Positions 29,301-34,215 of a stretch of 64,000 nucleotides of DNA are shown here, piece by piece. The stretch is taken from assembly GCA_030562195.1 (NCBI GenBank), contig CM060199.1, forward strand, positions 32,322,338 through 32,386,337, written 5' to 3'. The notes beneath the pieces are model-generated. The model was given only the letters and a program-made list of their open reading frames with translations. It was not told the origin of the DNA and did no database searches. The position numbers were made by a program, and so were the translations under genes. Each line of letters opens with the position of its first letter. The stretch's first letter is position 1. The DNA comes from Nipponacmea schrenckii (lineage: Eukaryota; Mollusca; Gastropoda; Lottiidae).

Positions 29301-32300
29301 CTTTATTTACTTTGCCAATATTCTTTATTGCATTCCCTCGTCCAAGCCGCTTCTGGCCAGAATCTGTAGGTGCCTCTGCCAATGTTTGTGGTGATTCAGT
29401 ATATTATAAGCAATTTGCTCCAGTGTTTGCTAAGGCCATTCGCAAGGCATTTGCTGATGGTAGTTTAGGTAAGTGAATATGATCACATGCTAATAAAAAC
29501 AATTTGCACAAAAAGCTTAGACTTTAAGTCTGCCTGTTTAATTTGGCTTTTTTAATTTTGGCTGGTGAAAGCTTGATAATCGATTGTTTAATTAACCATA
29601 AGTTGCCTAGTACTTTATAAATGTGAGGAATGAAAATTGATCTGAAAAATCCATTTTATATCCATGAACACAAGTCTTTAAGTATTCAGTATAGAATAAA
29701 CTCCCAAAAGGTATCAATAGTTTGATCTATATGACTATTGGCATCCTAGATAGTACAAGCACGTGCACTATTTGGCTATTGGCACCATATAAACCTTATT
29801 GGCGCCCCATTTACACTATTGTCATCCTGAAATTTCACTATTGGAGTGGAATGTAGGATTAATTACATAAGGTGATATATCTTCTTATTTAAGTTTCTAA
29901 TTGTTTTAATATATAATTTCCATAAACATTTATGATTTATTGACTTCTGATTGTAGGTGAAGCCAAACCTGGTAATCATTATATGGTAAGATATCAAGAT
30001 AGACTAGCATGGTTTACAGTATTAGAACGTGGTACCTCATATTGTACAGTCAATATTAAAGGTTTAGAACTACAAGAAACATCATGTCATACAGCTGAGG
30101 CAGCTAGACTGGATGATATATTTGAAATGGCATTCGAACGAGAAAACTCAGGCGCTTGTGGGTTGAATAGTTATCCATTACATTCCCTAACCCCAGTTGA
30201 TGCTGTGGGTGTCCAGACTTACTCAGATGCTAGAAATGTACTAACTGGTATAATAGACTCTCCAGATAGCTTCCCAATAACTATGTCTTACTTTGTTAAA
30301 TCTCTGATCTGGGTAGTTCTGCATCATGTCAACAAAAGAAAAATCACAGAGAACAAAGAAACACAAAAACAGAAGGAAAGAGCTATGGCTCATAAAGAGA
30401 AGGAAATTTTAGAAGCAGAAAGGACACAGAAGAATTCAACCAGAAGAAAATCTAAATCAGAAATCAACCACAACCATCAAAAATCAGATTTAAATAACCA
30501 CACAAATAGACATACAACAATAACTCATGCTCAAGTTGCCAAATCTTCTATTAAAAATGATTTGACACCAGTAGACAGTGATTCTAGACCTGCGTCTGCT
30601 GTATCTTTCAAAAAGAGGCGAAAACCTTCCCAGACATCTTCAATACATAGTTTTACTGACAGTATATGGTCTGATGATGAGTTTGAGAGGGTAGATAAAA
30701 AGAAGATCAATGTTCCTGTAATAAATTCATCCAGAAATCTCAACACCCCTATAACTAGGAGTAGAATGGCTGCCTCACCTATCAATGATTTTTCCAGACA
30801 GAAAACAGCTAGTCCATATGATGAAGAAATTGATAATATTTTAGAGGATCTGGACTTTGGTATGCCAGCGGTTGATGTAAGCAAGAAGACCCAAAAGTCC
30901 CAACCTTTCTCTAAGCCAGTTTCAAATAAACGAACAAATTCAAACAATCATATCTACAAACCAGTCACAAACTTAGCAGGGTCGCCAGATTTTAAGTGTC
31001 AGTATTCTGCTCACATCAGTTTACCAGTCAAGTGGAGAGAACTACCAATAGAGTATTCTCAATTATCAAGACACATTAGTCAATTCCCCACAGAATGGTA
31101 TAAATATGTGTTATCAACATTAGATTGGTCTGGTATAAGTTGTCCATCTGAGAAGGTTGCTCTGGAAGTTGCAGCTGATGATGCTTTAACTAATTGTTAT
31201 TCTCAACTTATTATGGCTTGTTACTCTGGATTTGATCTTCAAGGTAACTGTTCATGTATATTTTTTGGGTAAAGGTATTAATGAACTTGACATGGGGTTG
31301 TGAAAGAAAATTGAAATGAAGGGGCTGCATATGCACTTTTTTTTTTGCTCAAACAAAGATGGTTGACTTATTGAAGTAAAATTTTGATGAAATATTATTT
31401 CTTTACTTGTTACTTATTTCTGGGCAGTTGATTTATATAATTTACAAAAGTTGTGTATTTTGTGTATGCCCTTGATAATTGTTTTGGAATACATTTATAA
31501 TTGTAGGAAGATACAATGGAGCCAGTAGTCAGTATAAAACTTATATTGGTGATGTACCATGGAACGCAATGGTAGACTGGTTAGCAGAAGATAAAGAGCT
31601 GTATGGTGTGGTTATCAAGGCCTTCAGGTGAACTATGATAACTTTCCCTCATATTGTATGTTACCCTTAATGGGTAGCTGAGACTTAGTTTAAAATCCTT
31701 ATGATTTCACATCATTTAAACTTTTGGTGGAATATGTGAGAATACCTACTTAATTCTACTGAAGTTAACTTGCAATATGACACTTGAAATAAGAGCATTA
31801 TTGTTTACATGGTTAAAATAAACATTATTTTATTTCTCTGTTTTGGATAGATATGGATTTAAATTGATGATAGATCATATGTTGATGGGTGATATTGATA
31901 ATAATGAAGAATTAAGAGAATATTTAGAGGACTATGATGATAATTGGTATATTGGACTGGAGAGTGAGGAGGATTGGAAATCTGGTATTATTGACAATAA
32001 GAAGAATTTATTTTCTCTTGGACATAACTCAATACAGGTAAGGATTTTTTTTTTCAGTTATGATAATATCTGTATGGTATATTTTTGGGAACGTACAGTA
32101 GTAGAATAAAATATAATGTATATTAAATGTGATATATTGTATATTTTAGGGAACTTACAATAAAAGAATATTAGTGATACTATCTGTATATAAACTGTGA
32201 TATATTGTATATTTTGGGGAACATATAGTAGTAGAATATTAGTGATAATATCTGTATATTAAATGTGATATACAGTATATTGTATATTTTAGGGAACATA

Positions 32301-34215
32301 CAGTAGTAGAATATTAGTGATAATATCTGTATATTAAATGTGATATATATTGTATATTTTAGGGAACATACAGTAGTAGAATATTAGTGATACTATCTGT
32401 ATATAAAATGTGATATATTGTATATTTTGGGGAACTTACAGTAGTAGAATATTAGTGATAATATCTGTATATAAAATGTGATATATTGTATATTTTGGGG
32501 AACTTACAGTAGTAGAATATTAGTGATACTATCTGTATATAAAATGTGATATATTGTATATTTTGGGGAACATATAGTAGTAGAATATTAGTGATAATAT
32601 CTGTATATTAAATGTGATATATATTGTATATTTTAGGGAACATACAGTAGTAGAATATTAGTGATAATATCTGTATATTAAATGTGATATACATGTATAT
32701 TGTATATTTTAGGGAACATACAGTAGTAGAATATTAGTGATAATATCTGTATATTAAATGTGATATATATTGTGTATTTTAGGGAACATACAGTAGTAGA
32801 ATATTAGTGATAATATCTGTATATTGAATGTGATATATATTGTGTATTTTAGGGAACATACAGTAGTAGAATATTAGTGATAATATCTGTATATTAAATG
32901 TGATATATTGTATATTTTAGGGAACTTACAGTAGTAGAATATTAGTGATGATATCTGTATATTAAATGTGATATAATTGTATATTTTAGGGAACATACAG
33001 TAGTAGAATATTAGTGATGATATCTGTATATTAAATGTGATATATATTGTATATTTTAGGGAACATACAGTAGTAGAATATTAGTGATGATATCTGTATA
33101 TTAAATGTGATATACATTGTATATTTTAGGGAACATACAGTAGTAGAATATTAGTGATGATATCTGTATATTAAATGTGATATAATTGTATATTTTAGGG
33201 AACATACAGTAGTAGAATATTAGTGATGATATCTGTATATTAAATGTGATATATATTGTATATTTTAGGGAACATACAGTAGTAGAATATTAGTGATGAT
33301 ATCTGTATATTAAATGTGATATACATTGTATATTTTAGGGAACATACAGTAGTAGAATATTAGTGATGATATCTGTATATTAAATGTGATATGCATTGTA
33401 TATTTTAGGGAACATACAGTAGTAGAATATTAGTGATGATATCTGTATATTAAATGTGATAAAATTGTATATTTTAGGGAACATATAGTAGTAGAATATT
33501 AGTGATGATATCTGTATATTAAATGTGATATACATTGTATATTTTAGGGAACATACAGTAGTAGAATATTAGTGATGATATCTGTATATTAAATGTGATA
33601 TATTGTATATTTTAGGGAACATACAGTAGTAGAATATTAGTGATAATATCTGTATATTAAATGTGATATATATTGTATATTTTAGGGAACATACAGTAGT
33701 AGAATATTAGTGATGATATCTGTATATTAAATGTGATATATTGTATATTTTAGGGAACATACAGTAGTAGAATATTAGTGATGATATCTGTATATTAAAT
33801 GTGATATACATTGTATATTTTAGGGAACATACAGTAGTAGAATATTAGTGATAATATCTGTATATTAAATGTGATATATATTGTATATTTTAGGGAACAT
33901 ACAGTAGTAGAATATTAGTGATACTATCTGTATATTAAATGTGATATATATTGTGTATTTTAGGGAACATACAGTAGTAGAATATTATCACTACAAGAAG
34001 TTATGGTACATATCGGTAGACTTAATGAAGAAGTAGTAAAAGGACAATGGGCTAATTTGAGTTTAGAGTTACTCTATTTAACTAATGATGATGAAGAGAG
34101 ATACAGTATTCAAGCACATCCCACAATATTACGAAATTTAACAGTACAAGCTGCAGATCCACCTCTAGGTTATCCTATATTCTCTTCTCGACCCTTGTCA
34201 GTCCCTACATTATAA
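26396..34215 (+). CDS. PCNX4: PCNX4, pecanex-like protein 4, complete
   Basis: Multi-pass membrane protein of the pecanex family; molecular function not established. Coding exons: 26396-27108, 27437-27607, 27939-28477, 28625-28761, 28985-29468, 29957-31243, 31507-31627, 31851-32037, 33964-34215 (TAA). All junctions are GT-AG and in phase, giving 1296 residues, a little longer than the human protein. The N-terminus [15 protein letters not shown] with PQTILGG is diagnostic of PCNX4. Exons 1-5 encode numerous hydrophobic segments, with a [10 protein letters not shown] loop and [13 protein letters not shown]. Exon 6 opens the pecanex C-terminal domain ([30 protein letters not shown]). A Lys/Ser/Asn-rich linker of about 200 residues (roughly 806-1020) follows. 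The last exons carry [30 protein letters not shown] and [11 protein letters not shown]. Oddity: the last intron is filled by copies of its own acceptor and of the first 24 nt of the final exon. An acceptor at 26358 suggests an upstream 5'UTR exon. Confidence 0.96.
29725..29840. repeat. Short CTATTGGC-type repeats in PCNX4 intron 5
   Basis: Five or six irregularly spaced copies of (C/T)TATTGG(C/A) followed by a short variable spacer. They lie in the intron between exons 5 and 6, clear of both splice sites. Confidence 0.5.
32058..33963 (+). repeat. ~70-bp minisatellite built from the PCNX4 last-intron 3' splice site
   Basis: About 27 tandem units of 67-77 bp fill almost all of the last PCNX4 intron (32038-33963). 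Each unit holds GTGATRATATCTGTATATTA, then AATGTGATAT, then TATTGTATATTTTAG, then the 24 nt that start with GGAACATACAGTAGTAGAAT and end ATTA. The last unit leads into the real exon, whose first 24 nt are the same. There ATTA is followed by TCACTACAAG instead of GTGATR. By eye about 22 units keep the AG acceptor. Five (near 32085, 32217, 32430, 32498 and 32566) read TTTTGGG and have lost it. The first unit is the most diverged. Confidence 0.97.

Follow-up and report, generated by a model that had tools for sequence, protein, structure and literature searches.

Tandem copies of the 3' splice junction make up almost all of the last intron of a PCNX4 gene

Introduction

Variable number tandem repeats (VNTRs) that span a splice junction are known from the donor side of introns in two human genes. 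In ABCA7 intron 18, a VNTR with a 25-bp unit is described as 300 bp to over 10 kb long, which corresponds to about 12 to over 400 copies; splicing at a cryptic donor leaves exactly one unit in 2 +/- 1% of transcripts, independent of array length, and longer arrays are reported to go with lower expression and more exon 19 skipping (PMC5954066; PMC6660495). In CBS, a 31-bp VNTR lies at the exon 13-intron 13 boundary, and more repeats are reported to go with less enzyme activity (PMC5188458; PMC1395315). Here, we describe such an array at an acceptor. In a 64-kb stretch of DNA (C8:32322338-32386337, within a 399-Mb assembly of 1093 contigs; hereafter the window), intron 8 of PCNX4, a gene for a pecanex-like protein, consists almost entirely of tandem copies of its own 3' splice junction. 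The array resembles the ABCA7 VNTR, also an intronic tandem array, whose unit starts with the two bases of a splice donor, and the CBS 31-bp VNTR, which also lies across a splice junction; in all three, the tandem unit holds a splice site of the host gene. The human arrays differ from the one in PCNX4 in their side, the CBS VNTR lying on the exon-to-intron (donor) side and the 25-bp ABCA7 unit likewise at a donor, whereas the 70-bp PCNX4 unit lies on the acceptor side. The PCNX4 array extends junction-spanning VNTRs to the acceptor side.

The choice between duplicated acceptors has been described for the CBS 844ins68 allele and for beta-globin substrates. In CBS 844ins68, the distal site is reported to be strongly favoured (PMC2630376, whose text says 'donor' though the junction is an acceptor). 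Three beta-globin constructs, in which a proximal acceptor with an exon of 14, 55 or 205 nt precedes the full exon, are reported to be spliced very inefficiently and to the distal site only, and in another construct with two strong sites the concurrent presence of two U2AF or U2 slowed splicing, which a competitor oligonucleotide raised several-fold; the length of the proximal exon is also reported to influence acceptor choice (PMC5389562). Unlike the PCNX4 array, CBS 844ins68 has two copies only and concerns an internal exon (exon 8), and the beta-globin substrates are artificial, carry two sites and were spliced in vitro. Searches of open-access literature aimed at arrays with splice sites listed no acceptor-side array, at the level of titles and abstract openings, which is not proof of absence. 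The initial annotation of this DNA had stated that few arrays of this kind are known; this may hold for acceptors, but ABCA7 and CBS are precedents on the donor side.

Results

Tandem Repeats Finder (TRF) detected a 70-bp unit in 27.6 copies with 94% matches at 32073-33987 of the window. Each unit opens with the 24-nt start of exon 9 and continues with about 46 nt that end in the acceptor; 28 GGAAC anchors correspond to 27 upstream copies plus the true exon start. The acceptor AG is kept in 22 of the 27 upstream copies (hereafter decoys) and lost at 32088, 32218, 32431, 32499 and 32567 (copies 1, 3, 6, 7 and 8). These data bear out the initial annotation, which had described the intron as a minisatellite of its acceptor and the start of the final exon, had given the same unit composition and had counted about 22 copies with AG. 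When one unit was searched against the whole assembly and the best candidates were scored, all 27 matches listed were inside the PCNX4 array. Close tandem acceptors of the NAGNAG kind, in which alternative AGs lie a few nt apart, were considered and set aside, as neighbouring acceptor sites in the array are 62-76 nt apart.

Homologous proteins support 33964 as the true start of exon 9. When the C-terminal part of the joined protein was aligned with 120 homologues, the listed ones of 696, the R and L of GTYSSRIL, the peptide encoded by the copied exonic piece, proved to be present in 121 of 121 sequences and the Y in 119, which marks this exon start as old, and the conserved continuation SLQEV... 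is found after the last copy only. The joined PCNX4 product has 1296 residues from nine coding exons on the + strand, with exon boundaries placed by eye, and contains the Pfam domain Pecanex_C (3.7e-28). Of the best 120 of its 696 matches, those that bear a name are mostly called pecanex-like 4 or PCX4 and range from molluscs to mammals, supporting the assignment as PCNX4. It is 96% and 95% identical to Lottia gigantea LOTGIDRAFT_110843 in two aligned segments, which indicates that the source animal is a limpet close to Lottia. For exon 9, one other genome match was listed (C8:10907508, 44% identical), which probably belongs to another pecanex gene. In addition, two short open reading frames (ORFs), P0121 and P0122, are 54-55% identical to the decoy-tail query over 58-59% of its length and read ...FSLGHNKAQ followed by unrelated residues. 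They may be genomic ORFs that run into an intron, and their departure from the protein right after ...HNKAQ suggests that the position of intron 8 is common to another, oyster-like lineage.

To score splice sites, we built an acceptor matrix from 18 introns of the window, leaving out the true acceptor of the array, and a donor matrix from 19 introns. The latter were the eight of PCNX4 and 11 of the 14 of a many-exon gene on the - strand (5769-14102; 15 exon cores placed at 5946-12155), which we take, from its motifs, to be a TDRD9-like DEAH-helicase; its introns 4, 5 and 6 were uncertain and were dropped by eye. The boundaries of this gene were chosen by a generic consensus, so that the donor preferences are somewhat inflated. 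The true acceptor scored 13.4, the 22 decoys 10.7-13.4 and the five AG-less copies 3.5-6.8, while 19 real acceptors ranged from -2.0 to 16.6 in leave-one-out scoring. Two decoys are identical to the true acceptor over -23 to +3 and one over -39 to +24. Scoring of every unit thus agreed with the near-identity of acceptors claimed at the outset, and the local sequence does not distinguish the decoys from the true site.

The density of strong acceptors, defined as AG sites scoring at least 10, was compared in a 164-kb sample consisting of the window and ten 10-kb stretches (L009-L018). The sample contains 100 such sites on both strands, of which 24 lie within 2 kb at intron 8, namely the true site, its 22 decoys and one T10CAG site. 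The 2-kb stretches that rank next have six and four, and both are within the TDRD9-like training gene. Among 13 other arrays in the sample (at least 250 bp, at least four copies, period at least 15), none contains a strong acceptor on either strand. The clustering at intron 8 is thus more than chance would give. The T10CAG site (32045-32057, scored at 32056) is a strong acceptor-like site that ends 20 nt into intron 8, just ahead of the array, and is probably too close to the donor for use.

Of the 168 GTs in 32050-33963, only one scores at least 2.5 (6.1 at 32077), and it is upstream of all decoys; downstream of the first decoy the best GT scores 1.7, whereas 18 of the 19 real donors score at least 2.5. 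Given the lack of a good donor after the first decoy, decoy use would be expected to open a terminal exon rather than a cassette exon.

Joining exon 8 to any of the decoys leads in frame to a stop, after 14 residues in 20 of the 22 and after 16 in the other two. In all but one of the 22, the first eight residues are the same as in the real protein, so that decoy use exchanges 75 real residues for six to eight. The tails end in VMISVY in 12 decoys, in VIISVY in seven and otherwise in three (VILSVYKL among these other endings). The truncation and the 14-residue tail of the initial annotation stand, the latter for all but two decoys, but its loss of 84 residues does not, since exon 9 encodes 83 residues; of its typical reading, GTYSSRIL followed by VIISVY, the ending is that of seven decoys, VMISVY being the commoner one. 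The 75 lost residues hold 30 of the 105 invariant columns in an alignment of 32 homologues chosen from the 120 listed, suggesting that full-length PCNX4 is presumably needed. The L. gigantea protein was considered in an AlphaFold2 model (mean predicted local distance difference test score 74.6). The decoy cut interrupts a strand predicted at 1104-1122, where the confidence is 83-89, and the helices predicted past the cut have low confidence, with block means of 43-75 at 1121-1170.

The units also carry traces of the history of the array (Table 1). The 27 units comprise 21 distinct sequences: unit 22 equals 24, 23 equals 26 and 18 equals 25, and the match of units 14-15 to units 17-18 points to a recent three-unit duplication. 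Such identical units indicate recent turnover, probably by unequal exchange or slippage. Since the array leaves out the 22 nt at the 5' end of the intron, intron 8 was probably about 68 nt long before the expansion. AG was lost in five of the first eight copies and in none of the remaining 19, and the donor-proximal copies, where the losses sit, look oldest. We do not claim selection behind this pattern, because GG spread together with the unit types that were duplicated, and the 5' end seems to be the older part. With copies 1 and 2 left out, variability is 0.018 in the exon part and 0.034 in the intron part, a comparison that homogenisation makes uninformative; selection on the decoys was therefore not deduced from it.

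Table 1 Coordinates of PCNX4 and of the intron 8 array in the window
Feature	Position	Strand	Remarks
PCNX4 exons 1-4, coding	26396-27108, 27437-27607, 27939-28477, 28625-28761	+	
PCNX4 exons 5-8, coding	28985-29468, 29957-31243, 31507-31627, 31851-32037	+	Exons 1-8 span 26396-32037
PCNX4 intron 8	32038-33963	+	1926 nt; nearly all 70-bp minisatellite of own 3' splice junction
Non-repeated 5' end of intron 8	32038-32059	+	First 22 nt; donor CAG/GTAAGG (slash, exon-intron boundary), then T10CAG
Copy 1	32088-32149	+	Most diverged, nearest donor, AG lost
Copies 2-10	32150-32782	+	Acceptors GG in copies 3, 6, 7 and 8, AG in others
Decoy copy 11	32783-32852	+	Acceptor region equals true one, -39 to +24
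Decoy copy 12	32853-32920	+	Acceptor region equals true one, -26 to +24
Copies 13-18	32921-33338	+	Units 14-15 equal units 17-18; 13 and 16 one base apart
Copies 19-27	33339-33963	+	AG in all; copy 27 supplies intronic flank of true acceptor
PCNX4 exon 9, coding part	33964-34215	+	Encodes 83 residues, then stop; AG of true acceptor, 33962-33963
First 24 nt of exon 9	33964-33987	+	GTYSSRIL; exonic piece copied through array

Discussion

We give a probability of roughly 0.6 to the reading that the array grew passively and that the true, distal acceptor is predominantly chosen, the decoys being mostly bypassed. A short intron 8 would have undergone tandem duplication of its last 46 nt or so together with 24 nt of exon 9. 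Growth to 27 extra copies would have followed by unequal exchange or slippage, so that the true acceptor now comes last in a row of 23 sites of about equal strength. The last site would be picked because it alone leads into the remainder of the terminal exon and the 3' end region, while the decoys, which offer only 24 nt of exon and no good donor after it, would mostly be skipped with low leakage to the truncated form. Competition among the sites would probably slow the removal of intron 8 somewhat and perhaps act as a brake on output. Published duplicated splice sites are mostly spliced at the distal site, with extra sites slowing splicing, which favours a passive array over a switch of the isoform ratio.

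Some evidence weighs against a predominantly distal choice. A survey of alternative acceptors reports an overall preference for the upstream site, which is strong in short introns and significantly less so with long flanking introns (PMC9225289). The introns here are mostly short (18 of the 19 measured span 143-511 nt). Moreover, purine-rich motifs, as a possible mark of the last site, give no clear separation of exon 9 from the array: GARGAR occurs twice in the 252 nt of exon 9 and not at all in the 1926 nt of the intron, and two looser enhancer counts were alike. Exonic enhancers as the discriminator were therefore dropped. An earlier motif list had given 13 hits in exon 9 and none in the intron, but some of its motifs were selected with exon 9 already in view, so that it is biased; the counts above come from unbiased patterns.

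A tentative alternative is that the array acts on the amount of PCNX4 rather than on its isoforms. Up to 23 sites might bind U2AF and U2 at once, and such crowding might slow the removal of intron 8, so that copy number would set the amount of PCNX4 through splicing rate and nuclear retention. If this is true, output should fall with copy number with little truncated protein, and competitor acceptor RNA should paradoxically raise splicing, as reported for the two-site beta-globin construct (PMC5389562).

It seems unlikely that splicing to the decoys is frequent enough to matter and that the balance between full-length and truncated PCNX4 thereby depends on copy number, as the initial annotation had suggested. 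In favour of this proposal, all 22 decoys score about like the true site and run in frame to an early stop, and this stop would lie in the last exon, so that exon-junction-dependent decay should spare the message. The upstream preference in the survey of alternative sites (PMC9225289) also agrees with this proposal. However, frequent truncation should be costly when 30 of the 105 invariant positions are lost and the predicted strand is cut. Seven candidates from a peptide search with the decoy tail yielded two proteins, and the tail was present in neither, although this is weak evidence as the coverage of limpet transcripts in the database is uncertain. In ABCA7, furthermore, use of the duplicated donor is reported to be constant with VNTR length (PMC5954066).

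The array might instead supply premature terminal exons, each decoy opening a complete mini last exon that is cleaved within the array. Consistent with this, an ATTAAA or AATAAA hexamer is found in 23 of the 27 units, compared with 5.4% of shuffled copies of one unit, and it overlaps the decoy stop codon in 21 of the 27. The units stem from a single founder, however, so that the hexamer is one chance event in AT-rich DNA, and a series of functional poly(A) sites ahead of the last exon would be expected to be costly. We consider this explanation improbable.

An assembly artefact, in which the copy number or structure of the array is wrong, is also very improbable. The assembly does not seem to be error-free, as it appears to hold a doubled contig, C3. 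On the other hand, 21 distinct units among 27, the ordered variants and the lack of any N in the window argue for a real array, and the array was found once, so that contig C8 is not doubled at this place. As for C3 (59,252,672 bp; L012 and L019), it resembles two exact copies of 29,626,336 bp joined head to tail: the myosin matches listed on it are paired at half-contig distance (pairs read by eye, some checked arithmetically), and 2,000 of 2,000 bases were identical at the one place compared. The dimer is probably an assembly error.

The weakest proposal, that in-frame 24-nt cassette microexons spliced via the trailing GTGATA or GTGATG add copies of GTYSSRIL, draws on a length divisible by three and a GT immediately after the exonic piece in 26 of the 27 units, but can hardly be upheld. 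The scores of these GTs are -3.5 in 14 units and -0.8 in 12, against at least 2.5 for all but one of the 19 real donors, and 39% of the GTs across the window reach -2 or higher. No GT past the first decoy exceeds 1.7, the L. gigantea protein has one GTYSSRIL, and a narrow motif scan found none of 122 proteins with two.

The genome is rich in minisatellites, with 14 merged arrays in the 164-kb sample, nine of them (at least 250 bp) in the 100 kb outside the window. At such a density, some arrays should land on splice junctions by chance, so that the existence of the PCNX4 array alone is no argument for function. Four further long minisatellites lie in the window (3994-5746, 49313-50128, 56407-57299 and 60744-61183) and have no strong acceptors. 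Arrays with a period of 161-162 bp were seen at four of the ten sampled places (L011, L013, L014 and L016) on three contigs, and perhaps form one dispersed satellite family.

The array provides a natural experiment in acceptor choice, with 23 sites, one donor and nearly one sequence. Models of this choice would differ widely in the share of full-length message, which would be almost none if the first site to come is used, about 1 in 23 if all sites are used equally and nearly all under terminal-exon definition. Given the richness of this genome in minisatellites, more junction-spanning cases can be expected.

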